NCBI RefSeq assembly: GCF_011058165.1
Contig: NZ_JAALEG010000005.1
Span: 1-64,000, forward strand
Direction of reading: 5' to 3'
DNA from: Rhodococcus aetherivorans
GTDB lineage: Bacteria > Actinomycetota > Actinomycetes > Mycobacteriales > Mycobacteriaceae
DNA length: 64,000 bases
Of this stretch, positions 2,580 to 28,371 are shown one piece after another (position 1 is the stretch's first letter; each line of letters starts with the position of its first letter). The notes beneath the pieces were generated by a model, which saw nothing but the letters and a program-made list of their open reading frames with translations, searched no databases and had not been told where the DNA came from. Made by a program: the position numbers and the translations under genes.

Positions 2580-3233
2580 TCAGCCGGACACCGAGAGGAC
2601 GCGGGTGCGCAGGCGCCGCACCGCGTCCGCCGCCGGCACCACGGCGGCGCACCGCGCCGCGAGGTAGTGCAGCGCCTCGGTGTGCTCGCGCCGGGAGAAG
2701 TCCGCGACGCCGTCCGCGACGACGAAGACCTGCACGTCCTGCATGAATCCGTCCAGCGCGGTGCTCAGGCACCCGATGTGGGCGTAGACGCCGGTGACGA
2801 CGAGCTGGTCCCGGCCCCACGCGCGCATCCGCTCCCGCAGGTCGGTGCGGATGAACGCGCTGTAGCGCCACTTGGTGAGCTGCACGTCGTCCTCGCGCGG
2901 CGCGAGGTCGGCGACGACGGACGTCAGGGCCGGATCGTCGGCCAGGCCGGGACCCCAGAAATCGGTGAGCAGCGCCCGCTCGGCCGGATCCTGGTCGCCG
3001 GGCTGGGCGGTGTAGACGACGGGAATGCCCGCCTCGTACGCCGACCGCCGGATCGCGTCGATGTTCGGGACCACCGTCGCCAGCGGATCCGCCGCGCGGT
3101 CGAAGGCCCGCACGAAGTACTCCTGCATGTCGTGCACGAGCAGTACCGCCCGCCCCGGGTCGATGGTCCAGTCGACGGTGTTGGCGGGCAGGTCGGTCGG
3201 CAGGGGATAGGACACGGACTTCGGCAGGGCCAT
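2580..3233 (-). CDS. entB: Isochorismatase, free-standing (EntB N-terminal half)
   Basis: A 217-residue isochorismatase that hydrolyses isochorismate to 2,3-dihydro-2,3-dihydroxybenzoate and pyruvate. The N-terminus (SVSYPLP, then [20 protein letters not shown]) and [34 protein letters not shown] match EntB/DhbB closely. In those proteins this domain is followed by an aryl carrier domain. Here the chain stops after the hydrolase, and the missing carrier is a separate gene at 26874. It is the last gene of the entC-entA-entE-entB operon, 37 bases after entE. The ATG at 3233 is the only start that gives the conserved N-terminus. Confidence 0.93.
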
Positions 3234-3270
3234 CGCAGGATTCGCTTTCTGTGGTCGAGCGGAGTCGGGA

Positions 3271-4920
3271 TCAGTGCTGCAGGGTGGCGGCGAGCGCGCG
3301 ACGCAGTCCGGCGCGGCTGGTCTTGCCCACACCGGTGCGGGGGAAGGTGTCGACGAAGACCACCTTGTCGGGGATCTTGTACGCGGCCAGGCCCCGCTCG
3401 CGCAGGAAGGTCCTCAGCGCCGGGGCCTTCGGGGCCTCGCCGTCGGCGACGACGAACACACACGTGCGCTCCCCGAGGTAGGCGTCGGGCACGGCCACCA
3501 CCGCGGCGTCCAGGACCCCGGGGTGGGCGAGCAGGTGGTTCTCCACCTCCTCGGCGGCGATCTTCTCGCCGCCCCGGTTGATCTGGTCCTTCGCGCGGCC
3601 CTCGACGACGACGTAGCCGTCCTCGGTCAGCCGCACGAGGTCACCGGTGCGGTAGAACCCGTCGGCGGTGAACGCCGACGCGTTGTGCCCGGGCGCGTCG
3701 TAGTAGCCGCGGATCGTGTAGGGACCGCGGGTGAGCAGGTGGCCCGTCGCGCCCGGGGCGACGGGACGGTCGGCGTCGTCGACCACCCGGATCTCGTCGT
3801 GCGGGCTGATGGGCCGGCCCTGGGTGCCGACGATGGTGGCCTCGGGGTCGTCGAGCCGGGTGTAGTTGACCAGGCCCTCGGCCATCCCGAACACCTGCTG
3901 CAGGGTGCAGCCGAGTTCGGGCGTCACGCGCGCGGCCGCCTCGGCGCCGAACTTCGCGCCCCCCACCTGCAGGACCTGCAGCGACGACAGGTCCCGGTCG
4001 ATACGGGGCCGCGCCGACAGCCACGCCAGTGCGAGCGGGGGCACGAGCGACGCCATGGTGACCCGCTCGCGCTCGATCAGCGCGAAGGCGGTGTCGGGGC
4101 TCGGGTCCGGCGCCAGCACGATCGTGCCGCCGGCGTGCAGGACCCCGAGGATCCCGGGTGAGCTCATCGGGAAGTTGTGCGCCGCCGGCAGTACCACCAG
4201 CATCCGGGTGCCGGCGTCGACGCCGCAGATGCGGGCCGACTCGCGCACCGAGTACAGGTAGTCGGTGTGGGTGCGCGGGATCAGCTTCGGGGTTCCGGTG
4301 GTGCCGCCCGAGAGCTGCAGGAAGGCGACGGATTCCGCTTCGACATCGGCGAATTCGCCCGGCTCGTGCTCGCGCAGCGCGTCGAGCGGGGTGAACTCCC
4401 GGGCGTCGCCGGCGACGACCACGACCGGCGGACGGTCGAGGTTCGTGCACACCTGCCGGGCCAGGCCGCGGTAGTCGAATCCGCCGTGCTCGCCGGCGAT
4501 CACGTACGCGGCGGCGTCGGTGAACCGGCAGAAGTACCCGATCTCGGCGCTGCGGTGCGCGGGCAGCGCGAACACCGGCAGCGCACCGAGCCGGAACACC
4601 GCGAAGACCACCTCGGTGTACTCGACGATGTTGGGCAGCTGCACCAGCACCCGGTCGCCCGGCCGGACGCCCGCGGCCGCGAGCCCGGTGGCGATCCGGT
4701 CCGCGGCGCCGGTGAGTTCGCGGTAGGTGAGGCGGCGTTCGGTGCCGCGGGCGTCACGGCCGACCACGGCGACGCGCTCGCCGTGGCGGTCGGCCCGCAC
4801 GGACAGGAACCGGACGAACGTCTCGTCCGTCCAGTAGCCCGCGGCGCGGTAGAGTTCCGCGAACTCCTGGGGGTAGCCGGCGGTGGCAGCCAGGGGAGTC
4901 CGGGTGGCGGCGATCGTCAC
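3271..4920 (-). CDS. entE: 2,3-dihydroxybenzoate-AMP ligase
   Basis: A 549-residue stand-alone adenylation enzyme that activates DHB as its adenylate and loads it on the aryl carrier protein. It shows the P-loop [12 protein letters not shown], the DHB-pocket segment [11 protein letters not shown] (HNYPLSSPG-like in DhbE), [11 protein letters not shown], the hinge region [31 protein letters not shown] (split here as A8) and the catalytic lysine in [10 protein letters not shown]. The GTG at 4920 has AAAGGA just upstream. It lies 20 bases after entA, and translation is probably coupled within the operon. Its partner carrier is most likely the 79-residue protein at 26874, not the neighbouring entB, which lacks a carrier domain. 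Confidence 0.95.
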
Positions 4921-4940
4921 GGAGTTCCTTTCGATCCGGT

Positions 4941-5711
4941 TCAGGCGCGCAGCGTGGCGCCGCCGTCGACGTACAGGGTCTGCATGGTGATGTGGCGGGC
5001 ACGGTCGGAGAGCAGGAACTCGACGGCGTCGGCGATGTCGGCAGGGTCGGCGATGCGGCCCAGCGGAATCCCCACCTTGAACGAGGCGGCGTCGCCGTCG
5101 ATCGCGGTGCGGGCGCCCGCGTCGTCGGCCGGATCCGGCCACAGGGACCGTTGCATCGCCGTGTCCGTGGAGCCCGGGGCGACGACGTTGGCGCGGACCC
5201 CGAACCGGGCCAGCTCGAGGCCGAGCACACGAACGATCATGTGGGCGGCGGACTTCGACGCGCCGTATGCGCCCATTCCGGCGCGGGGCACACCCGCCGA
5301 ATTGGAGCCGACCGTGACGATCGCCCCGCGGCGACGCTCGCGCATCCCGCGACCGACGACGCGCAGCACGTTGATCAGGCCGGTGACGTTGACGTCGAAC
5401 ATCCGCTGCCACTCGGCGGGATCGGAGTCGAGCACCGACCCGGTGGTGAAGACGCCCGCGACGTGGGCCAGCGCGTCGACCGGCCCGTGCTCGGCCTCCA
5501 CTCGTGCGACCGCCTCGGCGACGCCGGCCGCGTCGCACACGTCGAGACCGTGCACGGGGGCGGCCACGTCGAGCAGCGCGGCGGTCTCGGCGAGGCCGTC
5601 GACATCGCGGTCGGCGAGGACGACGCGGTGCCCGGCCTTCGCGAGGGTCAGGGCGGTGGCGCGGCCGATGCCCTGGGCGGCGCCGACGACGAGGGTGACG
5701 GACCGGCTCAC
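4941..5711 (-). CDS. entA: 2,3-dihydro-2,3-dihydroxybenzoate dehydrogenase
   Basis: A 256-residue short-chain dehydrogenase that oxidises dihydro-DHB to DHB with NAD. It has the nucleotide-binding motif [11 protein letters not shown], the LAHVAGVF strand (NNAG position), the Ser-Tyr-Lys triad in VGSNSAG and YGASKSA, and a C-terminal [12 protein letters not shown], all as in EntA/DhbA. The GTG start at 5711 overlaps the entC stop (GTGA), which indicates translational coupling. Identity as EntA rather than a generic SDR rests mainly on its place between entC and entE. Confidence 0.92.
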
Positions 5712-6925
5712 CGCCGCACCCCCAGCGCCTCGAGCACCGTGCCGAACTTCGTTGTGGTCTCCGCGAGTTCGTCGAGCGGATCCGACCCGGCGACGATGCC
5801 GCCGCCCGCGTGGGTCGTGAGCGTGGTGCCGTCGGCGTCGAGGACGGCGCAGCGGATCGTCACCATCCATTCGCCGTCGCCGTCCCGGTCGGCCCAGCCG
5901 ACGGCGCCGGCGTAGAAACCGCGGTCACCCTCCAGTTCCTGGATCAGCGCCCGGGCGGGGGCGGTCGGCGTGCCGCAGATCGCGGGGGTCGGATGCACGG
6001 CGAGGGCGAGGTCGAGGGCGGTGACCGACCGGTCCCGCAACCGGCCCGAGATCGGGGTGCCCAGGTGCCAGAGCTGCCGGGTGCTCGTCAGGGTCGGCGA
6101 CCCGGGGATGTCGAGGTCGGTGCACAGCGGTTCGAGGCTCGCACGCAGGGCGTCGACGACGTGGGCGTGCTCGGCGAGGTTCTTCTCCGACGCGACGAGG
6201 CGCCGGCCGGTGCGCCGGTCGACCTCGGGGTCCGGGTGCCGGGGCGCCGAACCGGCGAGCGGATGACACGTGACGAGGTCGCCGCGGCGCCGGACGAGCA
6301 CCTCGGGACTGGCCCCGACGAGGTGTCGGCCGGTCCACGGTCCCCCGGCGGCGGTGAGGTCGACGACGAATCCGTTGCCGGAGGGGTCGTTTCCGGCCAG
6401 GCGGGCGAGCAGCGACGCCGGGTCGACGGGTGCGTCCGCCCGCAGGAGCAGCGCGCGGGCCAGCACCACCTTCGCCAGGTCGTCGGCCGGGTCGCGCAGT
6501 TGCCGCAGCGCCGTGGCCACCCGGTCGAGGTGTTCGTCCTCGGTGGGCAGCGTCGCGGCGATCCGCACCGGCGGCAGCGCGACGGTGACGTCCCCGACGG
6601 GGTCCGGCTGGTGTCGCAGCGCGACGGGAGCGGTGAGGGCGGCGTGGTGGTCGGGTGCGAACGGCAGCGCGCCGACGACGGCGGCCACCGAGCCGGCGCG
6701 CAGCGCTGCCGCGGCCTCGCCGGCCGAGGCGAACCGGGCGTCGACGCCCTCCGCCACGACGGTGCCGTGCGGACGCGACAGCACGAACGGGGCGGCGGAC
6801 CCGATCTGCCGCGGGGCGGCGGTGCCGATCTGCCGCGGGGCGGCGGTGCCGATCTGCCGCGGGGCGGCGGTGCCGATCTGCCGCGGGGCGGCGGTGCCGG
6901 GCGCGGCGACGGCCGGTGCTTGCAT
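5708..6925 (-). CDS. entC: Isochorismate synthase with repeat-containing N-terminus
   Basis: A 405-residue chorismate-binding enzyme that isomerises chorismate to isochorismate, the first committed step to DHB. Family motifs include [42 protein letters not shown] and the C-terminal [12 protein letters not shown] and [13 protein letters not shown]. The first 45 residues are unusual: the octapeptide TAAPRQIG is repeated four times, encoded by a perfect 24-bp tandem repeat. This extension is probably disordered and not part of the enzyme fold. It is the first gene of the DHB operon, with an IdeR box 69 bases upstream of its ATG, so it should be repressed by iron. Confidence 0.95.
6803..6898. repeat. 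Four perfect 24-bp tandem repeats in entC
   Basis: Four identical 24-base units start at 6803, 6827, 6851 and 6875. Because 24 is a multiple of three, each unit adds eight residues (TAAPRQIG) to the EntC N-terminus without changing frame. Perfect identity suggests recent expansion by slippage, so copy number probably varies between strains. Confidence 0.95.
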
Positions 6926-6993: not shown

Positions 6994-7012
6994 TACGGTT
7001 AGCCTAACCTTT
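6994..7012. promoter_or_regulatory. IdeR/DtxR iron box between entC and NRPS1
   Basis: The core GGTTAGCCTAACC (6997-7009) is a palindrome. The 19-base window fits TWAGGTWAGSCTWACCTWA at 17 of 19 positions. It sits between divergent entC (69 bases away) and NRPS1 (89 bases away), so one site could repress both arms of the locus when iron is plentiful. Confidence 0.85.
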
Positions 7013-7100: not shown

Positions 7101-10100
7101 GTGCCCACGTCCGGCCCGTCGACCTCGGCATTTCCGCTGACGCGGGCCCAGTCCGGCGTATGGTTCGCCCAGCAGCTCGACCCCGCGAACCCCGTCTTCA
7201 ACACCGCGGAATGCGTCGAACTCCGCGGCGACGTCGACGTCGCCGCGGTGACGCGGGCGGTCCGGGAGGCCGTCGCCGAAGCCGAGGTGCTCACCGCGGC
7301 CTTCGCCGTGGAGGCCGACGGATCGGTCCTCATCCGTCCCGGCGCGCACGAGGCGCCGGAGCCCGCCGTCGTCGATCTGCGCCGCGAGCCCGACCCGGAG
7401 GCGGCCGCCCGGCGCTGGATGGCCGGCGACCACACGCGCGTGCTGGATCCCGCCCGCGAGCCGTGCCTGCGCGCCGCCGTGCTCCGCCTCGGCGACCGGC
7501 ACGCCGTCCTCTACCTGTGCATCCACCACCTGGTGATCGATGCCTACGGCTTCGGCCTGCTCACCCGGCGCATCGCCGAACGCTACACCGCCGACGTGCT
7601 CGGGCTGCCGGTCCCACCGGCCAGGTTCGCCCCACTCGCCCCCGTCGTCGCCGAGGAAGCCGCCTACCGCGCGTCCGCGGACTTCGCCGCCGACCGGGAC
7701 TTCTGGGCCGGCTACCTCGACGGCGCCGAGGACGCCGTGACCCTCGCCGACGGTCCCGGCGGCATCGCCGTCCGCTGCCGCGGCGTGCGCCTGACCCTGA
7801 CCGCCGTACAGCAGCAAGGGCTCTCGCGGATCGGCAAGGCCACCGGCGCGAGCTGGGGCGACGTCGTCACCGCCGCCGTCGCCGCGTTCCTGCGCGCCGC
7901 GACGGGACGCGGCGACGTGATCGTGGGATTCCCGGTGATGAACCGGCTCGGCAGCGCCGCGACGACCGTGCCGATGTCCGCGGTCAACGTCGTGCCGCTG
8001 CGCCTGCGTCCCGAACCCGCCCGCACTCTCGCCGATCTCGTCGCCGAGGTGCGTGCCGCCGTGGCGGACTGCCGCCCGCACCACCGCTACCGCGGGGAGG
8101 ACATCCAGAACGACCTGCGCCTGCCCGCGGGCTCCCGGGGCGTCGTCGGACCGTCCGTCAACGTCAAACCGTTCGGCGACCGGCTGCGCTTCGCGGACCT
8201 GCACGCCGCGGTGCACTCCGTGGCCCGGGGCCCGCTGCAGGACTTCATGGTGACCGTGCGGCCGCTCGACCACACCGGCGGCCTCGAGGTCTGGGTGGAC
8301 GCGGATGCCGACGCCTACACCGCCGACGACCTCGCGCGGCACGCACGCCGTCTCGAACTGCTCCTCACCCAAATCGCCGCGCTCGCCGATCCGCACCGGC
8401 CGCTGGCCCGGCTGCAGATCCTCGGCGCCGGCGAGCGCCGCCGCCTCCTCGTCGAGCGCAGCGGCGACGACCTGCCGGTGCCGACGGACCTCACGCTGCC
8501 GGACCTGCTGGCCGCGCAGGTGGCCCGTGACCCGGACGCACCCGCGGTGCGCGATGCCGCCACCGCCCTGACCTTCGGCGAACTGGCCGCGCGCTCGCGC
8601 CGCCTCGCCCGTCACCTCCTGAGCCGCGGGCTCGGCCCACAGCGGCGCGTCGCCGTCGCGTTGCCGCGCCGCGCCGACACGCTGGTTGCGCTGTTCGCCG
8701 TCCTCGAGGCCGGCGCCACGTGCGTTCCGCTGGACCCCGACCATCCCGCCGAGCGGCTCGCCCACGTGCTCGCCGAGACCGTACCCGGTGTCGTGCTCAC
8801 CGGCGGCGACGGCGCCGCACGTATCGCCGAGATCTCCTGCACCGCGGGCCTGCCCGATCCGGTGAACCTCGACGGGCTGGACCTGTCCGGCTACGACGCC
8901 GAGCCGCTGACCCGCGCCGAACGCGGCCGCCCGCTGCACGAGCTCGACGTCGCCTACGTCATCCACACCTCCGGTTCGACCGGCCGGCCCAAGGGCGTGG
9001 AGGTCCCGCACCGCGGCGCCGTCAACCTGTTCCACAGCCACCGCGAGCGCGTCTTCTCCCGTGCCCGCGCCGAGGCCGGCCGCGACCGCCTGCGGGTCGG
9101 GCATGCCTGGTCGTTCGCGTTCGACGCCTCGTGGGGCCCGCATCTGTGGCTGCTCGACGGACACGAGCTGCGCATCGTCGACGAGGCCACCCAGCGGGAC
9201 CCGCACCGGCTCGCCGAACTCGCCGGCAGCGAGGGCTGGCACTTCGTCGAACTGTCGCCCGCGCAACTCGAGCAGATCGTCGAGGCCGACCTGCTGCCCG
9301 CCGGTACCGTGCCGACGCTCGGCTTCGGCGGCGACGCCGTCACCGACGCCCTGTGGCGGCGTCTGCGTGAGCGCGACGGCGCCGCGTTCAACTTCTACGG
9401 CCCCACGGAGGGCACCGTCGACGTCCTCGTCGCCGAGGTGGGGGACGCGGCGGAACCCGTGATCGGCCGGCCGGTGGCGAACCTGCGCGCCTACGTGCTC
9501 GACGCCGCGCTGAATCCGGTCCCGGAGGGCGTGGACGGCGAACTGTACGTCGCCGGCCCCGGCGTGGTGCGAGGCTACCTCGGCGCGCCCGGCGCGACCG
9601 CGGCGCGGTTCGTGGCGAACCCGTTCGGCGACAGCGAAAGCCGCATGTACCGCACCGGCGACGTGGTGCGGTGGACCGCGGACGGCCACCTCGTCTACCG
9701 CGGCCGCCGGGACGACCAGGTCAAGATCCGTGGCTTCCGCGTCGAACTCGGCGAGGTCGAGGCGGCGCTGCAGGAGCTGCCCGGCGTCGCGCGGGCCGTC
9801 GCCGTGGCGCGTCCCGACGCGACCGGCACCGCGCGGCTCGTCGCCTACCTGGTGGGCGGCGACGGTGACCCCGCGGCGGCCCGTGAGCTCGTGGCGCGGC
9901 GGCTGCCGGCGCACATGGTGCCGTCGGCGTTCGTGTTCCTCGACGCGCTGTCGCTCACCTCCAACGGGAAGGTGGACCGCACGTCGCTGCCGGAACCGGA
10001 CTTCGGGGCCCTCGTCGGCGGCCGCGCGGCCGCCACCGAACGCGAACGCGTGCTGTGCGCGGTGTTCGCGGACGTCCTGGGCCTCGACACCGTCGGCGTC

Positions 10101-13100
10101 GACGACGACTTCTTCCTCCTCGGCGGTCACTCCCTCGCGGCGGCCAAGCTGATCGCGAAGGTCCGCGACGCGCTCGGCGTGGAACTGCCGATCCGCACCG
10201 TCTTCGACCACCCGACCGTCGAGGGGCTCGCCGCGCAGTGCCCCGACGATGCCGCGGCCCTGCGGATCCCGCTGCGTCCGGTCGAACGCGGCGACCGTGC
10301 ACCGCTTTCGGCGGGGCAGCAGCGGCTGTGGTTCCAGTTCCGGCTCGAGGGCCCGAGCCCGACCTACAACGTCCCGCTGACGCTGCGCCTGCGCGGCGTC
10401 CCCGATCCGGCGGCGCTGCACGAAGCGGTGCGCGCGGTGCTGGACCGGCACGAGGTCCTGCGCACCGTGCTCGAGGACCACGACGGCGTCGGCATGCAGC
10501 GCGTGCTCGCCGCACCCGGCGTGCCGTTCACCGCCCGCACCGTCGCGGGGGCCGACCTGGACGCGGCGGTGGCGGCCGCGGCGCGGCACGTGTTCGACCT
10601 CGAACGCGAGATCCCGATCAGGGTGATGCTTTTCGAGGGCGGATCCGCGGAGGCCGTGCTGCTGGTGCTCGTGCACCACGTCGCCGCCGACGAGTTGTCC
10701 GCCCCGATCCTGCTGCGCGAGCTCGGCGCGGCCTACGCCGCCGCGGCCGCCGGGAGTTCCTGGACGCCGGCGCCGCTGCCGGTGCAGTACGCCGACTTCG
10801 CGGTGTGGCACCGCGAGATCCTCGGCGACGGCGACGGACTCGCCGCCCGCCAGCTCGACTACTGGCGCGCCCGGCTCGACGGGATGCCGGAGGAACTCGA
10901 CCTGCCCACCGACCGGCCCCGCGGCGCGACAGCCACGTTCGCGGGCGGCACGGTCGAACGGCTGGTACCGCCGCACGTGGCCGATGCGCTGCGGGCCGTC
11001 GCGCGCGGTGCGGGCGCCACGATGTTCATGCTCGTGCACACCGCCGTCGCCGTCGCCCTCGCGCGCAGCGGCGCGGGGGAGGACATCCCGATCGGCTCGC
11101 CCACCGCGGGCCGCCCCGCCGCCGAACTGGACGACCTCGTCGGGTTCTTCGTCAACATGGTGGTTCTGCGGACGGACCTGTCCGGCGATCCCACGCTCGC
11201 CGAACTGCTCGCCCGGATCCGCAGCACCGACCTCGACGCCTACGCGAACCAGGACCTGCCGTTCGACCGGCTGGTCGAGGCCCTGAACCCCTCCCGCAGC
11301 GCCGGCCGGCACCCGCTGTTCCAGGTGCTCGTGCAGCACCGCACCCCGCCGGTCGTCGACGCCTTCGCCGGCCTGGAACCGCGGGTGTCCACCGTCGACA
11401 CCGGCGCCGCCCTGTTCGACCTGACCTTCGACGTGGTCGAGGACGCGGGCGACGGCCTGCGAGTGCGGGTGGAGTACGCGCGGGACCTGTTCGACGCGGC
11501 CACCGCCGATGCGCTCGCCGCCCGCGTGGTGCGCGCCTTCGCGGCGCTCGCGAGGGATCCGCGGACCCGGCTGTCCGCGCTCGACCTGCTCGCCGACGAC
11601 GAGCGCGACCGTCTCTGCTCCGGCAGCCCGTACGTATGTATGGACGACGTCGAAGACGTCGGCGTGGACACCCTGGGTGAGCTGTTCACCCGCCAGGCGC
11701 GGCGCACCCCGACCGCGACCGCGCTGGTCACCGCCACCGGGACGCTCACCTTCGGGGAACTGCACGCCCGGACCAGTCGGCTCGCGCGGCACCTGATCCG
11801 CCGCGGCGTGGGACCCGAGACGGTGGTCGGGCTGATGCTGCCGCGCGGCACCGACGCGATCGTCGCGGCCCTCGCGGTGTGGCAGGCCGGCGGCGCCTAC
11901 GTCCCGATCGATCCCGGGTACCCGGCCGAGCGCATCGAACACATGCTCGCCGACTCGAGGCCCGTCCTCGTCCTCGACGAGGCCGCGCTCGCCGCGGTGG
12001 ACCCCACGCTCCCGGACACCCCGCTCGAGCCGGGCGAGCATCTCGGCGCAGTCTCCGGCGACGGGGCCGCCTATGTCGTCTACACCTCCGGCTCGACCGG
12101 GCTCCCCAAGGGCGTCGTGGTGCCGCACCGCGGCGTCGTGAACCTGGTCGCGACCCAGCGGCGCCGGACCGTCGGCCGCGCGGAGGACCGGCCGCTGCGG
12201 GTGCTGCTGAGCTACGCGCTGTCGTTCGACTCCTCGATCGACCCGCTGCTGTCCATGCTCGCCGGGCACACCCTGTACCTGCCGGACGCCGACCTGCTCG
12301 CCGACGCCGCCGCCACCGTCGCCTACGTGCGCACCCACCGCATCGACGCCGTCGACTGCGTACCGCTGCTCATGACCGAACTGCTCGCCGCCGGCCTGTG
12401 CGAGCCCGCGGCGCCGCACCGTCCCAGCCTGCTCGCCGTCGGCGGCGAGGCCGTGTCCGCGGACCTGTGGTCGGCGCTCGGCGCGTTCGACGGGGTACGG
12501 GCGCTGAACATGTACGGCCCCACCGAATGCACGGTCGACGCCACGGTCGCCGAGATCCGCGGGGCGCGCCCGCACATCGGGGCGCCGATCGACGGCGCCC
12601 GGGTGTACGTGCTCGACGACCGTCTGCGCCTCGTCGCGGCGGGCGTGGCCGGAGAGCTGTACGTCGGCGGGCCCGGCGTCACCCGCGGCTACCTGAACCG
12701 CCCCGGGCCGAGTGCGGCCCGCTACGTGGCCGATCCGTTCGGCGCTGCGGGCGCCCGGCTCTACCGCACCGGAGATCGGGTGCGGTGGATCGACGCGGGC
12801 GGCGACCGTCCGGTGCTCGAGTACCTCGGCCGCAGCGACGATCAGGTCAAGATCCGCGGGTTCCGCATCGAGCTCGGCGAGATCGAGGCCGCGTTGTCGG
12901 CGCACCCGGCGGTCGCGGGCTGCGTGGTCGTGGCCCGGGAGGACGAGCCGGGCCGCCGCCGGCTCGTCGGGTACGTCACCGGCGCCGGAGCAGATCCGGA
13001 AGTGTTGCGGCAGCACGTGTCCCGTAGTCTGCCCGAGCACATGGTGCCGGCCGCGATCGTGGTGCTCGACGAGTTCCCGGTCACCCCCAACGGTAAGGTC

Positions 13101-15543: not shown

Positions 15544-15562
15544 CCGCCAGGCGTCCTGGCGG
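15544..15562. promoter_or_regulatory. Hairpin or palindromic operator in the lysE leader
   Basis: CCGCCAGG-CGT-CCTGGCGG is a perfect 8-bp inverted repeat with a 3-base centre, 16 bases before the exporter start. There is no T-run. It could be an operator for the divergent Lrp protein or a leader hairpin. The surrounding 15457-15578 gap is noticeably richer in A and T than its neighbours. Confidence 0.45.
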
Positions 15563-15578
15563 TCCGAGAGTGTGAAGG

Positions 15579-16434: not shown

Positions 16435-16453
16435 TTCGGTTAGCCTAACCAAT
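16435..16453. promoter_or_regulatory. IdeR/DtxR iron box before the siderophore-binding lipoprotein
   Basis: The same 13-base core as the box at 6997 (GGTTAGCCTAACC, here 16438-16450) lies 46 bases before the lipoprotein ATG, with 16 of 19 consensus matches. Identical cores at both sites argue for shared iron control. Confidence 0.85.
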
Positions 16454-16498
16454 CAGGTCCGGGCGGGTGCCCGGCGAACAGACATGTGGGAGTTAGCG

Positions 16499-17596: not shown

Positions 17597-20500
17597 ATGA
17601 CCCGCACCTCCGCGCTCGAAGACATCGTTCCCCTCTCGCCGCTGCAGCAAGGCCTGCTCTACCTCAGCACCGTCGCCGCGCCCGACGACACCGCCCGTGC
17701 CGCCGGAGCCGTCGAACCGGACGCCTACACCGTGCAGTCCGTGCTGAGCCTGACCGGGCGGGTGGACGAGGACACCCTGCGGACCTCCGCGCAGGCGCTG
17801 CTGGACCGGCACCCCGCCCTGCGCACGTGCTTCCGCTCCCGCAAGGACGGCCGCACCGCCGGCCTCGTCGTGCGCGGCACCGAAGCCCCCTGGCGCAGCG
17901 TCGATCTGACCGGTCTCGAGCCGGACGTCGCGGAGCGTCACCTCGCGGACCTGCTCGCCGAGGATCTACGCGACTGGTTCGACCTCACGCGGCCGCCGCT
18001 GATCCGCTGGCTGTTCGTGCGATTCGGGCCGGACGACGTGCGGCTCGTGCTCACCGCCCACCACATCGTCGTGGACGGCTGGTCCACCCCGATCCTGGTG
18101 CGCGAACTCCTCGAGATCTACGCCGCGGGCGGTGCCGCCACCGGCCTGCTTCCGGTCCGGCCCTACCGCGACTACCTCGCGTGGCTCGGCAGGCAGGACC
18201 ACGACGCCGCCCGCGCGTTGTGGCGCGAATCCCTCGACGGACTCACCGAACCGAGCCTCGTCGCCCCGCCCGGCGCCACCCGGGCCACGACGCCGACCGC
18301 CGCCGTCGCCGTCGAGGTGCCGGCCGGACTCGGCGACCGGCTCACCGGCCTGGCCCGCGACGCCGGCGTCACCCTCAACACCGTCCTGCAGACCGGGTGG
18401 GCGCTGCTGCTGTCCGGGCTGCTCGGCCGCGATGACGTCGTCTTCGGCGCCACCGTCTCCGGGCGACCGCCGGAACTGGCCGGCGTCGAATCCATGGTCG
18501 GGTTGTTCATCAACACCGTGCCCGTGCGGGTGCGCCTGGATCCCCGCGCCACCGTCACCGAGCTGCTACGGCGCGTGCAGCTGGCGCAGTCCCGCACCGT
18601 CGACCACCAGTACCTCGGCCTCGCCGAGGTACAGCGCGACGTGGGACTGGGGGAGCTGTTCGACACCCTCACCGTCTTCGAGAGCTATCCCGTGGACCGC
18701 GACGCGCTCGACCGTGCCCAGCGCGCCGGCGGGGTCACGATCGCCGCCGTCGAGGGCCGCGACGCCACCAACTATCCGCTCGTGCTCACCGCGGGCGTCG
18801 CAGACACCCTCGTCATGACCCTCGACTACCGGCCCGGCCTGTTCACCGCGGACGACGCCGCCGCCCTCGCCGGCCGCCTCGTCCACATCCTCGGCGCCCT
18901 CGCCGCCGCGCCGGACCGCCCGGCCGCCGCGCTGGACCTGCTCACCGGCACCGAACGCGACCGCGTCCTCGGCACGTGGTCCGTCGCGCCGGCCGCGCCC
19001 TCGGACGGCACCGTCGCGGCGCTGCCCGCCTCGGCGGGGCCGGAAACCCTCGCGGTGGTGTGCGGCGCCGAGGAGCGCACCTTCGCGGAGCTCGGGGCGA
19101 ACTCGGCGCGGCTCGCGCGCCTGCTGATCGGGCTCGGTGTCGGACCCGACGTGCTCGTGGGCCTGGCCCTGCCACGCTCCGCCGCCACCGTGGAGGCCGT
19201 CCTCGCGGTGCTCGCCGCCGGGGGTGCCTACCTGCCGCTCGATCCGTCGTACCCGGCGGAGCGGTTGGCGCACATGGTCGCCGACGCCCGCCCCGGTGTC
19301 GTGCTCACCACCCGTGCCGTCGCCGACGAACTCGGAGCGACCCTCACCGGCAGCGGCGCGTGCCTCGTCGTGCTCGACGACCCGGACCTGCGCGCCCGGC
19401 TCGCCGCGCTGCCCGCCGCCGCGGTGGCCGACGCCGATCGTCTCCGCCCGCTCCGCCCCGGTCACGCCGCGTACGTCGTCTACACCTCCGGCTCCACCGG
19501 CCTCCCCAAGGGTGTCACCGTCACCCACGCCAATCTCACCGATCTCGTTGCTGCGCAGCGAGAGACGATCATGCGGTCGGCGTCCGGCACGTGGCGGGTG
19601 CTGCTGACCTACCCGTTCGCCTTCGACTCGGCCGTCGCGGCCCTGACCTGGCTGCTGTCCGGGCACACCCTGCACGTGCTGCCCGACGAGCACCGCACCG
19701 ACACCGCGTTCGTCGTCGACTACGTGCGGACCCACCGCATCGATCATGTCGACTGCGTGCCCGTGCTGATGAGCGGTCTGCTCGACGCCGGTCTGCTCGA
19801 CGGTGACCGCCCCCGGCCCGCCAAGGTGACCGTCGGCGGCGAGGCAGTCGGATCGGCGCTGTGGCGGCGCCTCGGCGCCGCGGACGGCGTCGAGGCCTAC
19901 AACTGCTACGGCCCCACCGAATGCACGGTCGACGCAACCTGCTCCCGTATCGAGGGAGACACCGTGACCATCGGCGGACCGACCCCCGGCACCCGGCTGT
20001 ACGTGCTGGACCGGTGGCTGCGGCCGGCACCGCCCGGCGTGGCCGGGGAACTGTATGTCGCCGGCGGGGGTGTCGCCCGCGGTTACGTGGGACAACCCGG
20101 CCGGACGGGGGAGCGGTTCGTCGCCGACCCGTTCACCGGCCGGGGCGAGCGGATGTACCGCACCGGCGACGTCGTGCGGTGGTTGCCGGACCCGGTCGAC
20201 ACCGAACGCGGTGCCCTCGAATACGTGGGCCGCGACGACGACCAGGTCAAGATCCGCGGGTTCCGCGTCGAACTCGGCGAGATCGAGGCCGCGCTGGGTG
20301 CCGTGCCGGGGGTGCGTGCCGCCGTCGTCGTCGCGCACACCGACGCCCGCGACGTGCGCCGCCTGGTCGGCTACGTCACCGGAACGGCCGAGCCCGTGAC
20401 CGTCCGCACCGCCGTCGCCGCCCACCTGCCCGAGTACCTGGTGCCCGCCGCGATCCTGCGGGTCCCGGAACTGCCGACCACCGCGAACGGCAAGGTGGAC

Positions 20501-23500
20501 CGGAAGGCCCTGCCGGAGCCGGACTTCGGGGCGCTCGCCGGATCCGGTGCGCCAAGCACCGCGACGGAGTCGGCGCTGTGCTCCGCGTTCGCGGAGGTCC
20601 TCGGCCTCGACCGCGTCGGCGTCGACGACGACTTCTTCACCCTCGGCGGCGATTCCATCGTCTCGATTCAACTGGTGTCCCGCGCTCGCGCCGCCGACGT
20701 CCGGATCACCGCGCGCCAGGTGTTCGAACTGCGCACCGTCGCCGCGCTCGCCGCGGCCTGCGAGTCCGGCACCGGTGACGAGCAGCCGGCGCGGCCCGCC
20801 GTCGCGGCCACCGGCCCGGTCCCGCTCACCCCCATCGTGCGCGAAACCCTCGACCACGGAGGGGATCTGCGGCGCTTCGCGCAAGCCCGCCTGCTGATCG
20901 CTCCGCCCGGGCTCACCGAGGCGCACCTCGTCGCGGCCGTCGACGCACTGCTGCGCACCCATCCCATGCTCCGCTCGCGCCTGACCGTCGCCGGCGGCGA
21001 CGCGGACTGGGTGGTGCCCGAGGGTATTCCGGACGCGGCGACGGCGGTGCGCCGGGTCTACGCGGCAGGTCTCGACGACGCGCGGTGGCGCGCCCTGTTC
21101 GAGGCCGAACGCGACCGCGCGCTGGCGGACCTCGACCCCGCGGCCGGGCAGATGATCCGCGTGGTGCTCCTCGACGCCGGCCCCGACGCGGCGGGCCGCG
21201 TGTTCGTCGCCGTGCACCACCTCGTCGTCGACGGTGTGTCGTGGCGGATTCTCGTGCCCGACCTCGCGGCCGCCGTCGATCGGGTGCGCCGCGGCGCCGC
21301 GCCGGACCTCGAGCCGGCCGGCACCTCCTTCCGGGACTGGGCGCTCGGGCTCACCGAAGCCGCCACGTCCGATCGCATTACGCACGCTTTGCCGCGCTGG
21401 CAGGAGATCGCCGAGACCACCGAACCGCCGCTGGGCGCCCGCCCGCTGGATCCGGCGCGCGACACCGTCGCCACCGCGCGGTCGCGCGAGGTGCGGGTAC
21501 CCGTGGCGGTCACCGAGCAGATCCTCACCACCGTGCCCGCCGCGTACCAGGCGGGCGTCGCGGATGTGCTGCTCACCGCCCTCGCGCTGGCCGTGACGTC
21601 GGTGCGCGGCGGCGACGTGCTGCGCGTGCACCTCGAGGGCCACGGCCGCGCCGAGCACGCCGTGCCCGGCGCCGACCTCACCCGCACCGTCGGCTGGTTC
21701 ACCACCCTGTACCCCGCCGTGCTCGACGTGTCCGGCATCGACCCGCACGAGGCCCTCGCCGGTACCGCGGCAGCCGGAACCGCTCTGGCCCAGGTCAAGG
21801 AGTCGCTGCGGGCCCTGCCCGACGACGGCCTCGGATTCGGGCTGCTGCGCCGGCTCGCTCCCGGGGGAACGCGGCACTTCCCGGGGTACCGGGCCCCCGA
21901 CGTGATGTTCAACTACCTCGGCCGGATGACGCTCGGGGAGAACGCAGGTCAGGCGTGGTCCGCCGCGCCGGAGGCGGGTGCCCTCGGCGGCGCCGTCGAT
22001 CCCGGCACACCCCTCGACCACGTCCTCGACGTCAACGCCGTCACCGAGGACGGCCCCCGCGGCCCCGAGATCGTCTGCGAATTCACGGCGGCGGGCGTCC
22101 TCGACGAGGAGACCGTCGCCCTCGTCGCCGGCCGGTGGGTGGAGGCGCTCGCCGCGCTGGCCCGGCACGCCGGCACCCCCGGCGCCGGCGGACCCACCCC
22201 GTCGGACCTGACCTACCGGGGGCTGGCGCTGCCCGAACTCGCCTCGCTCACCACCGAACTCGGCCCGATCGACGACGTCGTGCCGCTCACGCCGCTGCAG
22301 CGCGGCATGTTCTTCCTCGCCGGTCTCGACGACGGCACCGGCACCGACGTGTACTCGATGCAGACCGTCCTCGATCTGCGCGGCGACCTCGACCGGGACA
22401 CGTTGCGGCGCAGCGTCGTCGCGCTGCTGGACCGGAACGCGACCCTGCGCACCGGATTCCGCACGACCGCAGCCGGTGACCCCGTCGGCGTCGTTCTCCG
22501 GGACCCCGGCCTGCGGTGGACGGACGTCGACCTCACACACGACCCCACCCCCGTGACCGAATGTCACACCGCTTCGGTCAGATCGACGCGATGTGACATT
22601 CGGCCCGTCGAGGAGCGCAGCGACGACCTCGTCGCCGCCGACCGCGCCACCCGGTTCGACGTCGCGGCCGCGCCGCTGGTGCGGTTCACCCTCGTGCGCG
22701 TCGCACCGGACCGGCACCGGCTGATCTTCGCCGCCCACCACCTGCTGCTCGACGGCTGGTCGTCGCCGCTGCTGATGCAGGAACTGTTCACCCTCTACGG
22801 CGCGGGCGCCGACCCGGCGTCGCTGCCCGGGGTCCGCCCGTTCACCGACTACCTTGCGTGGCTGGGCGACCGCGACACCGACGAGGGCTTGCGCCGCTGG
22901 ACCGAGGCGCTCACCGGCGTCGAGGAACCCACGCTGCTTGCCCCGGCCGGCTCGTCGCTCGACGCCACGCTGCCCGCCGAACTCTCGGTGCCGGTGCCGG
23001 CCGGCCTGGCCGCGCGGCTGCAGCGCCGCTGCCGCGACCTCGGCGTCACCGTGAACACCGCGGTGCAGACCGCGTGGGCGGTTCTCCTCGGCGCCCGGCT
23101 CGACCGCACCGACGTGACCTTCGGCGCCGTCGTGTCCGGCCGCGTCCCGGACGTTCCCGGCGTCGAGACGATGATCGGCCTGTTCATCAACACCGTGCCC
23201 GTGCGCGTCGCGCTGCGCCCCGGCGAGCCCGCCGCCGAACTGCTCCGGCGCGTCCAGGACGAGCAGAACCGGCTCCTGGATCACCAGTACGTCGGCCTCG
23301 CCGACATCCAGCGCGCCGTCGGCCTCGGCGAACTGTTCGACACCCTCATCGTGTTCGAGAGCTACCCGATCGACACCGACGCCCTCGCCCGCGCGCAGCG
23401 CTCCGGTGGTCTCGATGTCACCGACGTCCGCGGTCACGACGCCACCAACTTCCCGCTGGTGCTCGTCGCCGCACTCGACGACGAGCTCGCCCTCACCCTC

Positions 23501-26500
23501 GAGTACCAGCAGGCGTTGTTTACCGCCGCCGACGCCGGCGAGCTCGGCCGGCAGCTCGTGCGCCTCCTCGACCAGCTCGCCGGGGAACAGTCGCTGCGCG
23601 TCGCCCAGCTCGACGTCCTCGGTCCGGCCGAGCGAGGGCGGCTGCCCGAACTCTCGTCGACCGCCCCGGCACCGTCGAACGGGCACCGCACCGTGCCCGA
23701 CCTGCTCGCGGCGCAGATCGCCCGCACCCCGGACGCGGCGGCCGTCGTGTGCGGCGCCGTGCGGCTCACCTTCGCCCAGCTCGGCGCCGCGTCGGCACGT
23801 CTGGCACGACGGCTGATCGACGAGGGCGTCGGACCCGAGACGCTCGTGGGCCTGGCCCTGCCGCGCTCGGCGGACATGATGGTCGCGCTCTGCGCCGTGC
23901 ACGCCGCCGGCGGCGCCTACGTGCCGATGGACCCGGCGTACCCCGCGGAGCGCCTCGCGCACATGGTCGGCGACGCGCGGCCGCGGGTCGTGGTCACGAA
24001 CGGTGCCGTGGCGCAGACGCTGCGACCGGTGCTCGGCGGGGTGCCGGTGCTCGACCTCGACGACGAGACGGTCCGTGCCGACGTCGGGGCCCGCCCGGCC
24101 GCACCCGTCGCCGACCACGAGCGCACCGCACCGCTCCGACCGGAGCACCCCGTGTACGTCATCTACACGTCCGGCTCCACCGGGTTGCCGAAGGGCGTGG
24201 CGATCACCCACGCGAACCTGCTCAACCTGTTCGACAGCCACCGCGCCGACCTGTACGTGCCCACCGTGGCGGGGGCGGGCCGGACGAGCGTGGGCGTCGG
24301 GCACGCCTGGTCGTTCGGGTTCGACGCCTCGTGGCAGCCGATGCTGTGGCTGCTCGACGGCCACGCCGTGCACGTGTTCGACGAGGACACCCTGCGCGAT
24401 CCCGAGGCGATGGTCGCGTACGTCGCCGAACACGAACTCGACTTCCTCGAGGTCACCCCGTCGTTCCTCGACCGCATGGTCGCCGCCGGGCTGTTCGACG
24501 GCGGACACCGGCCCGCCACGGTCGGGTTCGGGGGCGAGGCCGTCAACCCGGCGCTGTGGCGGCGGTTGCGGGAGCTGACCGACGGACGTGCGTTCAATCT
24601 CTACGGGCCCACCGAGTGCACCGTCGACTCGCTCGTCGGACAGGTCACCGACGCCGACACCCCGTGCCTGGGCCGGGCCGTGCACGGCGCCGCCACCTAC
24701 GTCCTCGACCGGATGCTGCGCCCCGTGCCGGTCGGCGTCGCGGGTGAGCTGTACGTCGCCGGATCCGGCGTGGCCCGCGGCTACCTCGGCCGCCCCGACC
24801 TGACCGGCACCCGCTTCCTGCCCGACCCGTTCGGTCCGCCGGGAACCCGCATGTACCGCACCGGCGACGTCGTGCGCCGGGTCCCGGCCGGCGACGGCCG
24901 TGTCACCCTCGAATTCCTCGGCCGCGGCGACGACCAGGTCAAGATCCGCGGCTTCCGGGTCGAGCTCGGCGAGGTCGAGGCGGCCCTGACCGCGGTGCGC
25001 GGGGTGCGCGACGCCGTCGCCGTCGCCCACACCGACGAACGCGGCGTGCGCCGGCTCGTCGGCTACGTCGTGCCCGACGGCGACGTGGACCCGGCCGTCG
25101 TGCGGGCCGTGCTCGCCGAGCGGCTCCCGGACTACATGGTGCCGGCCGCGGTGCTCGTGCTGGCCGCATTCCCCGTCACCGCCAACGGCAAGGTGGATCG
25201 GAAGGCGCTGCCGGAGCCGGACTTCGGGGCACTCGTCGGCTCGGGTGCGCCGCGCACCGAGCGGGAGGCGGTGCTGGCGGAGGTGGCCGCCGAGGTGCTC
25301 GGCCTCGACCGGGTGGGCATCGACGACGACTTCTTCGCGCTCGGCGGTGACTCGATCGTCTCGATCCAGTTCGTCTCCCGCGCCCGGGCCGCCGGGCTCC
25401 GGCTCACGGCCCGGCAGGTGTTCGAGCTGCGCACCGTCGCGGCCCTGGCCGCGGTCGACGAGACGGACACGGCCCCGGCGGCGGTGCCCGCGGTCGCCGC
25501 GACGGGCGACGTGCCGATCACCCCGATCGTGTGGGAGGCCCTCGCGTGGGGTGGCGACCTCGCGCGGTTCTCGCAGGCGCGGTTGCTCGTCGCGCCCGTC
25601 GGCCTCACCGTGGACACGCTCGGGAAGGCCGTCGCGGCGCTGCTCGACACCCATCCGATGCTGCGGTCCCGGTTCGCCGTCGCCGGGGGCCGACCCCGCT
25701 GGACCGTCCCCGAGACCGCACCGGGCATCGAGACCCTGGTGCGCCGCGTCGAGGTCGGCGAGGTCGACGACGAGCAGTGGGCGGATCGGTTCGCTGCCGA
25801 ACGCGAAATCGCCTACAGGGCACTCGATCCGGAATCCGGAGTGATGGTGCAGGCGATCTTGTTCGACTTCGGGCCGCACCGCCCCGGCCGCGTGTTCATC
25901 GCCGTGCACCACCTGGTGATCGACGGTGTGTCGTGGCGCATCCTCGTGCCCGACCTCGCCGACGCCGTCGAACAGGCCGGACGCGGCGAGACCGTCGCGC
26001 TGACGTCACCCGGCACGTCCTTCCGGGCGTGGGCGACCGGCCTCGCCGAGGCCGCGCGCTCCGAGCGGATCAGGGCCTCGCTGCCCGCCTGGCAACCCGC
26101 GGTCGACGCGGTCGAACCACCCCTCGGCGTCCGGGCCCTCGACCCGGCACGCGACACGGTCTCGGCGCTGCGCTCGACGCACGTGCGGGTTCCCGTGCCG
26201 GTCACCGAGGACGTCCTCGCCTCCGGGGCCGTGAACGACGCGCTGCTCGCGGCGCTCGCCGTGGCGGTCGCCTCGGTCCGCGGCGGCGACGTCGTGCGCG
26301 TCGAACTCGAGGGTCACGGCCGCGAGGAACAGGTCGTGCCCGGAGCCGACGTCGCGCGCACCGTCGGGTGGTTCACGTCGATGTTCCCGGTCGCGCTGAA
26401 CCTGGCCGGTATCGACCCCGAGGACGCCCTGACCGGCGCGGCCGCCGCGCGCGAGGCCCGCGCGCGAGTCGCGCACGTGCTGAACGCCGTGCCCGACAAC

Positions 26501-26869
26501 GGCATCGGCTTCGGACTACTGCACCGCCTCGCGCCCGACCACGTCTTCGACCGCTATCGGCGGCCCCAGGTGGTGTTCAACTACCTCGGCCGGATGACGC
26601 TCGGCGAGGACACCGGCGCCCCGTGGTCGGGCGCACCCGAGGCCGTCGCGCTCGGCGGTTCCGTCGACCCGGCCACGCCGCTCGACCACGTCCTGCACGT
26701 CGACGCCGTCGTCGAGGACACCCCGGAGGGGCCCGTGCTCGACTGCGAATTCGCCGCGCCCGACGAGGTGCTCGACGAGCACACCGTCGCCGTCGTGGCC
26801 CGGCGCTGGGTCCAGGCCCTCACCGCGGCCGCCCGCATCCCCGAACCCGTTGCAACCGAGAAGGAGTGA
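17597..26869 (+). CDS. Siderophore NRPS 2: C-A-T-E-C-A-T-E, no thioesterase
   Basis: A 3090-residue two-module synthetase. Approximate domains: C1 5-430 (HHIVVDG at 155), A1 480-970, T1 Ser1020, E1 1065-1530 (HHLVVDG at 1207), C2 1555-2010 (HHLLLDG at 1714), A2 2035-2535, T2 Ser2586, E2 2630-3075 (HHLVIDG at 2771). Both carriers are GGDSI, as expected before E domains, and both C domains begin VPL(S/T)PLQ like those that accept D-residues. Eye-read codes are DSADVVCVD (A1) and DAQEVFLVD (A2). The protein ends shortly after E2 with no thioesterase, reductase or docking tail, so chain release is unexplained. C2 carries a 17-residue insert (about 1653-1669) encoded by a palindromic repeat. Stop is 4 bases before the aryl carrier gene. 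Confidence 0.93.
22557..22603. repeat. 47-bp palindromic repeat, copy A, inside NRPS2
   Basis: Twelve-base perfect arms CCGAATGTCACA (22557-22568) and TGTGACATTCGG (22592-22603) flank a 23-base centre. The same 47-bp design recurs at 38866 and 42817. Here it is translated as part of condensation domain 2, giving ECHT...RCDIRP. The 5-base sequence CCCGT occurs on both sides (22550-22554 and 22604-22608), possibly a trace of insertion. Confidence 0.9.
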
Positions 26870-26873
26870 CCTC

Positions 26874-27113
26874 ATGTCAACACAGTCCGGCATCCTGGAC
26901 CGCGAGACGATCCGCACCGATATCGCACGGCTCCTCGAGATCGAGGCCGACGAACTCGACCCCGCGCTCAGCCTCGTCGACCAGGGCCTCGACTCGGTGC
27001 GTCTGATGGGGCTCGTGGAGCAGTGGCGCGGCGCCGGCGCGGATGTCGACTTCGTCTCGCTGGCCACCGAACCGCAGCTCGAGGCGTGGTACGACCTGCT
27101 CGCCCCGCGGTGA
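26874..27113 (+). CDS. Free-standing aryl carrier protein (EntB C-terminal half)
   Basis: A 79-residue carrier protein. The 4'-phosphopantetheine site is Ser41 in DQGLDSVRLMGL. The C-terminal DFVSLATEPQLEAWYDLL closely resembles the EntB aryl carrier end (DFVMLAKNPTIDAWWKLL), so it is an aryl carrier and not an ordinary PCP. It should be charged with DHB by EntE and donate it to C1 of NRPS1. GAAGGAG at 26859 provides a strong ribosome binding site inside the end of NRPS2, and the spacing implies co-transcription with NRPS2 and the exporter that follows 7 bases later. Confidence 0.92.
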   Translation: MSTQSGILDRETIRTDIARLLEIEADELDPALSLVDQGLDSVRLMGLVEQWRGAGADVDFVSLATEPQLEAWYDLLAPR

Positions 27114-27120
27114 CCCGGCC

Positions 27121-28371
27121 GTGGCCCTGATCGACAAGCTGGTCCTCGACGTCGACCCCCTGCGCACCAGCCGCGAATTCCGCTACATCTTCACCGCTCG
27201 GGTCGTGTCGCTGTTCGGCCTCGGCTTCCTCGTCGTCGCCGTGCCGCTGCAGGTGTACCGGCTCACCGGGTCCACCGCGCAGGTCGCCGCCGTGTCGGCG
27301 GTGCTCGGCGTGACCACGTTCGCCGCCACGTTCGTCGGCGGGGTGCTCGCCGACCGCTACGATCGCCGGCGCGTCATCGCCGTCGCCCGGGGCACCGCGG
27401 GCGTGGCGTTCGCGGTGCTCGCACTCAACGCGTTTCTGCCCGACCCGAAGATGTGGGTCGTCTATGTGGCGGCCGTGATCGACGGCGCGTGCGGCGGCAT
27501 TTCCGCGACCGCCCTCATGGCCGTCACCCCCAGTCTGCTGCCGCGGGAGAAGATGGCGGCGGCCGGTGCGCTCATGGCCCTCACCGGCGACCTGGGCGCG
27601 ATGGTCGGACCCGCACTCGGCGGGGTCGTCATCGCCGCCGGCGGAGTCGGGGTGGCCTATGCTCTCGCGGCATTCACCACCGCCGTGACCACGTTCTGCA
27701 TCACCCGGCTGCCGTCCCTGCCGCCGACGCACGTCGCCGACGAGTCGCCGCTGCGCTCGGTGCTCAGCGGCTTCCGCTACGCGTCGGGGAACCGTGTCAT
27801 CGGCGGCGTGCTCGTCTGCGGATTCGTGACGATGCTGCTTGCCGGCTGGTCGGTACTCGTCCCCGAGTACGCCACCGAGGTGCTCGGTGCGGGACCGTCG
27901 GTGGTGGGGCTGCTCTACACCGCCCCGGCCGTCGGCGCGGTGATCGGCTCGCTCACCAGCGGCTGGACCGGCCACCTCCGCCGATCCGGGCAGGTGGTCT
28001 TCCTGCTCATGGCCGTCTCCGCCGCCGGGCTCGTCGGGGCGGGCCTCACCGCGACCGTCGCGGTGGCGCTGCTGGGCCTGGCCGCGCACGGCTTCGGCGA
28101 CGCGCTCACCGACATCGTCCGGTACGCGACGGTCCAGAAACACACCCCCGACGAGTACCGGGGGCGCATCGCCGCGGTGTGGGCGGCGCAGGTCACCGCC
28201 GGTGCCTCCGTCGGCGCGGTGGTCGCGGGCGCAGTGGCGGCGCTGGTGCCGATCTCGGCGGCGCTGCCCGCGTACGGTGCCGTCGGGCTGGTGATCACCG
28301 CGCTGCTGTGGGCCACCTGGCGCACGCTGCGCCGGCTCGACGAGGGGACCTCACTCGAGCGCGTCGCCTGA
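27121..28371 (+). CDS. entS: EntS-like MFS siderophore exporter
   Basis: A 416-residue major facilitator protein with about 12 membrane segments. It matches EntS along its length: FRYIFTARVVSLFGLGFLVVAVPLQ, GGVLADRYDRRRVI (the loop 2-3 motif), ARGTAGVAFAVLALNAFLP, LLSGFRY-like SVLSGFRYASGN, and QKHTPDEYRGRIAAVWAAQ. EntS exports enterobactin in enteric bacteria, so this protein most likely secretes the DHB peptide. GTG start 7 bases after the aryl carrier stop; a strong hairpin follows the gene. Regulation should follow NRPS2. Confidence 0.92.
   Translation: MALIDKLVLDVDPLRTSREFRYIFTARVVSLFGLGFLVVAVPLQVYRLTGSTAQVAAVSAVLGVTTFAATFVGGVLADRYDRRRVIAVARGTAGVAFAVLALNAFLPDPKMWVVYVAAVIDGACGGISATALMAVTPSLLPREKMAAAGALMALTGDLGAMVGPALGGVVIAAGGVGVAYALAAFTTAVTTFCITRLPSLPPTHVADESPLRSVLSGFRYASGNRVIGGVLVCGFVTMLLAGWSVLVPEYATEVLGAGPSVVGLLYTAPAVGAVIGSLTSGWTGHLRRSGQVVFLLMAVSAAGLVGAGLTATVAVALLGLAAHGFGDALTDIVRYATVQKHTPDEYRGRIAAVWAAQVTAGASVGAVVAGAVAALVPISAALPAYGAVGLVITALLWATWRTLRRLDEGTSLERVA

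Follow-up and report, generated by a model that had tools for sequence, protein, structure and literature searches.

The locus analyzed here raises two questions: whether the siderophore that it encodes is new, and how an assembly line that stops after an epimerization (E) domain releases its product. It occupies positions 2580 to 28371 of a 64,000-nucleotide stretch of Rhodococcus aetherivorans DNA (assembly GCF_011058165.1, contig NZ_JAALEG010000005.1, positions 1 to 64,000), hereafter the window, and encodes the supply of 2,3-dihydroxybenzoate (DHB) together with two nonribosomal peptide synthetases (NRPSs). A preliminary description, made from the sequence, had proposed a candidate new catecholate siderophore; the novelty is not borne out, since a Rhodococcus equi locus that fits the rhequibactin genes has the same genes at about 70% identity. 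Sequence comparison makes it secure that the window carries a member of the already known rhequibactin-type (IupS/IupT) locus rather than a new cluster. Beyond this identity, the account that we favour, with confidence somewhat above even, is that hydroxy-ornithine would be provided by an N-hydroxylase encoded elsewhere in the genome, that the chain would be released by cyclization, and that the product would be a mixed catecholate-hydroxamate siderophore.

Annotation was by Pfam and NCBIfam profile searches combined with reading of open reading frames and motifs, start positions being frame readings. With condensation, adenylation and thiolation domains abbreviated as C, A and T, the core features are as follows.

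2580..3233, minus strand: isochorismatase in the EntB/DhbB role, without a fused aryl carrier (PF00857, 139.1 bits; 71% to Hoyosella)
3271..4920, minus strand: 2,3-dihydroxybenzoate-AMP ligase, EntE (TIGR02275, 748.6 bits, cut-off 723.55)
4941..5711, minus strand: 2,3-dihydro-2,3-dihydroxybenzoate dehydrogenase, EntA (TIGR04316, 302.2 bits, cut-off 300)
5708..6925, minus strand: isochorismate synthase, EntC/DhbC (TIGR00543, 247.7 bits, cut-off 224.75)
7101..14843, plus strand: NRPS1, 2580 residues, C(starter)-A-T-C-A-T-E, codes DAWEGGFVDK and DSIDAGMVDK (Pfam, motif reading)
16481..17515 (start approximate), plus strand: siderophore-binding lipoprotein, Peripla_BP_2 (PF01497, 57.9 bits; the PRK10957 match is weak and far under its cut-off)
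17597..26869, plus strand: NRPS2, 3090 residues, C-A-T-E-C-A-T-E, codes DSVDTGCVDK and DAWEGGLVDK (Pfam, motif reading)
23708..25192, plus strand: last A domain of NRPS2, code DAWEGGLVDK of hydroxy-ornithine type (limits from Pfam matches)
25583..26845, plus strand: terminal E domain of NRPS2, with HHLVIDG, EGHGR and Tyr motifs intact
26874..27113, plus strand: stand-alone aryl carrier protein, 79 residues (PF00550, 31.7 bits)
27121..28371 (start uncertain, frame open from 27043), plus strand: MFS exporter of EntS type (PRK10489, 521.4 bits, cut-off 324)

The DHB operon (isochorismatase, ligase, EntA and EntC) reads leftwards and NRPS1 rightwards. The DHB supply genes and the separate aryl carrier lie where the preliminary description placed them, and its domain orders, with E domains after residues 2, 3 and 4, are likewise upheld. 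NRPS2 does stop after its last E domain, 7 residues past the Pfam match, and motif reading finds HHxxxDG in all three E domains. This layout supports a predicted DHB-capped tetrapeptide, with no releasing domain in cis.

Gene maps and a protein search across named genomes found the order EntC, NRPS1, binding protein, NRPS2, aryl carrier, MFS exporter to be identical in Prescottella equi DSM 20307 and Rhodococcus hoagii AcN21-7. As in these two genomes, an EntCAEB-type operon is divergent from two NRPSs accompanied by a binding protein and an MFS gene. Both NRPSs are full-length homologues with matching modules (68-69% identity for NRPS1 and 69-70% for NRPS2), and nine code positions agree at each of the four A domains. 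The preliminary description had named near-identity with a characterized cluster as evidence against its proposal; such a likeness is largely there, at about 70% rather than near-identity. The R. ruber NBRC 15591 locus is closer (88%, part of NRPS1 being covered in that genome). Passages of PMC2947987 and PMC5550956 describe the R. equi locus as carrying Ent/DhbCAEB homologues, Rbt1/IupS, MFS transporters and a binding protein; the former gives the numbering REQ08100-08200 and the latter names both IupS and IupT. The same passages present the rhequibactins as catecholate, needed for free-living growth, which a deletion in R. equi abolished (PMC5550956), and dispensable for infection. On distribution, one passage of PMC5550956 refers to R. 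equi strains only, another to several Rhodococcus strains and A. subflavus; we find the locus in 19 of the 151 genomes searched.

Both NRPSs end in an E domain, so exchanging their order leaves the line equally without a releasing domain. Across the whole contig (135,330 bases, E<=0.001), no PF00975 thioesterase, MbtH or Lys/Orn N-hydroxylase was matched, and none of the seven condensation-domain matches (three in NRPS1, four in NRPS2) falls outside the two NRPSs. Because the window starts at base 1 of its contig, the upstream neighbourhood is visible only in relatives; in R. ruber, ten open reading frames scanned in a 20-kb stretch (L188), which includes the region just upstream of the cluster, belong to no thioesterase family. 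The idea of a third NRPS or a thioesterase just beside the window was rejected on these two results. A TAP-like hydrolase gene at 30439-32004 was also considered as the release enzyme and dropped: its N-terminus looks by eye like a secretion signal, and it is set apart from the cluster by intervening genes.

The lack of a releasing domain is shared by relatives. The aryl carrier is matched in 74 of the 151 genomes, distant ones included. Among 20 stretches around such matches, which were taken as same-genus or high-scoring rather than at random, 15 hold the locus, two a heterobactin-like synthetase (L126/L127) and two the DHB genes and carrier without these NRPSs, one stretch being too short. 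The 15, the window and one more named genome form a joint set of 17 genomes; L031, L033, L034 and L038 were kept out of its counts, being from the same genomes as L118, L117, L110 and L129, and one of the 19 locus-bearing genomes has the locus cut by a contig end. NRPS2 ends in T-E in all 17; it is a two-module protein in 14 of them, has three modules in two, and a single one in Hoyosella altamirensis. Two additional genomes fit the pattern: G066, laid out like H. altamirensis, has the T-E end, and G044, from another genus, has NRPS1, an extra NRPS of 2582 residues and a one-module NRPS2 ending in DAWEGGLVDK-T-E. The E-terminated, thioesterase-free end is present in all 19 genomes read, always with the same last module; it is a real trait and not a truncation.

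The NRPS2 length variants lie on L129/L038, L267, L111, L113 and L264, with the end module constant, and the extra NRPS of G044 stands between the other two. The single-module form belongs to two Hoyosella-type genomes and G044, the three-module form to two same-genus genomes. In L115 (G013) and L122 (G012), the DHB genes and aryl carrier are kept and NRPS1 and NRPS2 are not at that place; elsewhere in G012, an NRPS of 3567 residues is encoded, its starter resembling that of EntF, with codes like those for Gly and Ser.

The adenylation codes, read by alignment with GrsA (which returned its own expected code), suggest what the modules load. The last A domain reads DAWEGGLVD in 17/17 genomes and in G044 and G066, and the first, readable in 14 genomes, is DAWEGGFVD in 12 of them and DAVEGGFVD in two, the other three stretches stopping before it. 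The middle codes, DSIDAGMVDK and DSVDTGCVDK, resemble DALDVGMVDK, the first code of the heterobactin-like synthetase, which we take to be arginine-loading; we infer that residues 2 and 3 are basic and that residue 2 is most likely arginine. According to passages of PMC7692728, DAWEGGLVDK is the code with which the fifth module of the scabichelin synthetase loads hydroxy-ornithine, and relatives of that synthetase end in C/A/T/E; the last module of the window combines this same code with an E-terminated end. Hydroxy-ornithine is therefore likely as the last residue, judging from the code, and residue 1 is perhaps also N5-hydroxy-ornithine. Two suggestions of the preliminary description need revision here. 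Release in trans, or by the chain itself, is plausible, but the hydroxy-ornithine code makes a linear product doubtful; and although the DHB starter agrees with a catecholate, a purely catecholate one is doubtful given that code and an N-hydroxylase gene found elsewhere in the genome or, in some relatives, beside entB.

The absence of MbtH and N-hydroxylase genes, true of the contig just as is that of a thioesterase and of extra condensation domains, does not extend to the genome. Contig C202 carries its one strong Lys/Orn N-hydroxylase (PF13434, 357 bits; the next match has 45), whose end overlaps the only MbtH gene of the genome by 4 bases. No condensation domain was matched on C202, and no hydroxy-ornithine-like code was found among the readable codes of ten other NRPS contigs, some codes being readable in part and contig C150 (a single partial C match) left unread. 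In R. ruber, the N-hydroxylase orthologue shares the contig of the cluster, with ~57 kb between it and the aryl carrier. The H. altamirensis orthologue comes 39 bp after entB and is read the same way; that of G066 likewise comes after entB, within about 50 bp; and in G044, the orthologue stands beside entB, upstream of NRPS1 and on the NRPS1 strand. All 19 locus-bearing genomes have an N-hydroxylase match. Its presence inside the locus of G066 and G044 raised our confidence in the favoured account very slightly. Near the R. ruber gene, there is an OrfB/TnpB-type transposase gene (L187:2438-3724).

The proposed mechanism is that residue 4 would be N5-hydroxy-ornithine supplied by the C202 enzyme, that its N-OH would attack the chain's own thioester, and that the chain would leave the last carrier as a cyclic hydroxamate, either unaided or with a trans-acting alpha/beta-hydrolase, to give a mixed catecholate-hydroxamate siderophore. 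A thioesterase would be unnecessary because the terminal hydroxy-ornithine would cyclize itself off the carrier, and such cyclization is our best inference for release. The precedent is a chlorinated-DHB peptide that, in passages of PMC10683483, has a C-terminal cyclo-hydroxy-ornithine and is made by two NRPSs, the last module lacking a thioesterase; release is proposed there to be by a trans alpha/beta-hydrolase homologous to AmcB. Our reference for such an enzyme is a hydrolase encoded beside an NRPS in Amycolatopsis anabasis (L042), called AmcB-like from its place and fold family rather than by matching to AmcB or DafK sequences. Of 79 named loci, 28 (its own among them) contain a match of 62% identity or more, on the same strand as the NRPS and 0.2-8 kb before the NRPS match; a further locus reaches 52%. 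The homologue in this genome, 59% identical, lies on contig C154 and scores far above the next match (324 bits against 52). Homologues occur in 75 of the 151 genomes, and in 16 of 18 same-genus genomes the gene lies within 280 bases of the N-hydroxylase gene on the same strand, R. ruber, where it is on another contig, and this genome being different in this respect. In four other rhodococci (L242-L244, L246), the hydrolase gene directly adjoins the N-hydroxylase-MbtH pair.

Several observations weigh against parts of this account. For the hydrolase, four of seven further contexts place it beside an otsA-like gene, all in genomes without an N-hydroxylase match; a quick tree, from which L212, L214 and L219 were omitted as the same genes as L247-L249, puts the Mycobacteriales hydrolases in a clade apart from cluster-borne ones; and its closest solved relative is BpoC, so that the C154 protein may have another role. 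After the otsA context and the tree, the Mycobacteriales hydrolase was no longer regarded as a proven cyclase and was reduced to a candidate; because of these two findings and its wide occurrence, self-cyclization is our main claim and the AmcB-like hydrolase a weakly supported candidate helper. Were cyclization simply spontaneous, a terminal E domain would be odd. For the N-hydroxylase, lysine-specific MbtG scores highest among solved relatives (448 bits) and ornithine-type KtzI lower (350); six of 18 same-genus genomes carry the gene although no copy of the locus turned up in them (one of the six is 75% complete); and its surroundings in this genome gave no iron-box match. An NRPS of 5596 residues, with other, hydroxy-ornithine-like codes, sits in R. 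equi (L241) between the hydrolase gene and the N-hydroxylase-MbtH pair, and G040 (L245) is similar, so the N-hydroxylase there probably serves another siderophore too. The match of the fourth A code is to a published assignment rather than to an assay on the window domains, and six iron ligands remain unaccounted for, an N-acyltransferase for residue 1 not having been searched for. The tie to REQ08100-08200 of R. equi 103S was made through other R. equi genomes, from the genes present and their order, no rhequibactin structure was found in the open-licence literature searched, and the product structure for the window strain is a prediction from the genes.

Other routes of release have to be weighed against self-cyclization. 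A general type II thioesterase encoded elsewhere might hydrolyze the chain to a linear DHB tetrapeptide acid, its last residue perhaps unmodified; 16 PF00975 matches elsewhere in the genome could provide one, and the MbtG-like nature of the N-hydroxylase leaves hydroxy-ornithine in doubt. With none of those matches on this contig, a hydroxy-ornithine-type last code in every genome of the joint set and two more, and the N-hydroxylase gene beside entB in three relatives, we consider this route unlikely. The terminal E domain might itself have been repurposed for release or cyclization, there being no C domain after it. In the 17 genomes, the first His of its HHxxxDG motif is Asn in nine, His in seven and Asp in one, whereas it is His in 16/16 NRPS1 E domains and in 16/16 first NRPS2 E domains; the Asn or Asp forms (10/17) are those of L032, L113, L117-L121 and L123-L125. 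The second His, the Glu and the Tyr are invariant in 17/17, and the domain averages 65.1% pairwise identity, close to the 66.1% and 68.8% of the other two E domains, which indicates that the terminal E domain is maintained and not decaying; the first-His change could reflect relaxed constraint or a shifted role. However, the window copy has the standard HH, as do those of G044 and G066, Asn or Asp also occurs in the second E domain of the two three-module NRPS2s and is not confined to the last position, and the residues expected of an epimerase are retained. We know of no precedent for an E domain acting in this way, and regard the possibility as distinctly improbable.

PBP-type (PF00144) release enzymes act on D-terminal chains, and one acting in trans might free the D-terminal peptide as in surugamide-type systems; R. 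ruber encodes a PF00144 protein ~6 kb upstream of its ABC exporter. The distribution of such proteins (at E<=1e-60 in only two of 18 same-genus genomes, 13 of 91 overall) largely refutes this route, the relatives of the R. ruber protein are carboxylesterases/LipL, and head-to-tail closure is impossible for a DHB-capped chain; the gene was dropped as a release enzyme on its distribution and relatives, and the probability left to the route is very small. Slightest of all is the chance that the locus has decayed, or no longer yields a product, after loss of its thioesterase. The lack of a releasing domain in cis would fit, but the frames and motifs are intact, the form is common to 17/17 genomes, and the deletion in R. 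equi blocked free-living growth (PMC5550956).

Self-cyclization of the hydroxy-ornithine end remains our preferred reading. The remaining features of the locus concern its regulation and its flanks.

6994..7012: IdeR/DmdR-type iron box TACGGTTAGCCTAACCTTT, between entC and NRPS1, 4 mismatches to the consensus
16435..16453: second iron box TTCGGTTAGCCTAACCAAT, ahead of the binding-protein gene, 3 mismatches to the consensus
15004-16211: AsnC/Lrp regulator and LysE exporter in divergent orientation, separating NRPS1 from the binding-protein gene
718..2562, plus strand: ABC exporter with fused membrane and ATPase parts (PF00664/PF00005), flanking the DHB operon

Both boxes were scored against a 19-base consensus. 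All 19 bases of the first box are identical in L031 and L033 (both R. equi/hoagii loci), one base differing in Hoyosella L038, and the second box is identical in the same two loci. A third, weaker match is at 34257 (5 mismatches); five simulated 64-kb sequences had no iron box at 5 or fewer mismatches. R. ruber (L188), L115 and L122, the last two from other same-genus genomes, likewise have the ABC exporter beside the DHB operon. Where the window has the AsnC/LysE pair, the R. ruber insert is a different one and consists of frames for a GNAT acetyltransferase, a DHDPS-family protein, a cupin-HTH protein and a class II aldolase.

Rhodobactin, from R. rhodochrous, has two catecholates and one hydroxamate. 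Its gene cluster is described as not identified in a 2020 review (PMC7502451). The locus is a possible candidate source. A bolder proposal, which we put forward tentatively and regard as doubtful, is that it makes rhodobactin and that rhequibactin is alike: both would be DHB-capped with a cyclic D-hydroxy-ornithine end, their length would change as whole modules are gained or lost, NRPS2 having from one to three C-A-T-E modules and G044 an additional NRPS, and a fixed hydroxy-ornithine-E module would couple epimerization to thioesterase-free release. The analysis leads from an unknown siderophore to a definite class of structures that can be tested, for a locus long known genetically. The relatives form a natural synthetase series, in which middle modules vary and the E-terminated end module is fixed, that may be useful for studies of thioesterase-free release and module exchange.

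Comparison with known systems places the locus among them. It shares genes, order, codes and both iron boxes with the rhequibactin locus, from which it differs in the AsnC-LysE pair, absent in R. equi, and in the terminal E motif (HH in the window, NH in R. equi). The L126/L127 synthetase, present in two same-genus genomes and presumably heterobactin-type from its domain order, has a DHB-type ligase nearby, an E domain in its first module and a code, DALDVGMVDK, similar to the second code of NRPS1, but is a single NRPS with an extra carrier-like order in module 2 and a terminal serine-hydrolase (thioesterase-like) motif; the window has two NRPSs and no such end. EntF of enterobactin and DhbF of bacillibactin biosynthesis end in a thioesterase and make a Ser/Thr triester; the window shares with these systems the DHB supply genes and a DHB-type starter module, but has no C-terminal thioesterase after a Ser/Thr module. 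The closer parallels for its end are siderophore synthetases that lack a thioesterase or terminate in an E domain, for which the relatives of scabichelin (passages of PMC7692728) and chlorodactyloferrin (passages of PMC10683483) are precedents. The scabichelin-type synthetases share the last module DAWEGGLVDK, described relatives ending in A/T/E, whereas scabichelin is a tris-hydroxamate without DHB and the window has a DHB starter. The chlorodactyloferrin system (DafA/DafB) has a catechol starter, two NRPSs and a last module without a thioesterase, and its four E domains, C-terminal cyclo-hydroxy-ornithine and proposed trans hydrolase may also be counted as likenesses; it differs in its seven amino-acid residues, in its chlorinated DHB, and in having N-hydroxylase, acetyltransferase and hydrolase all encoded inside the cluster.

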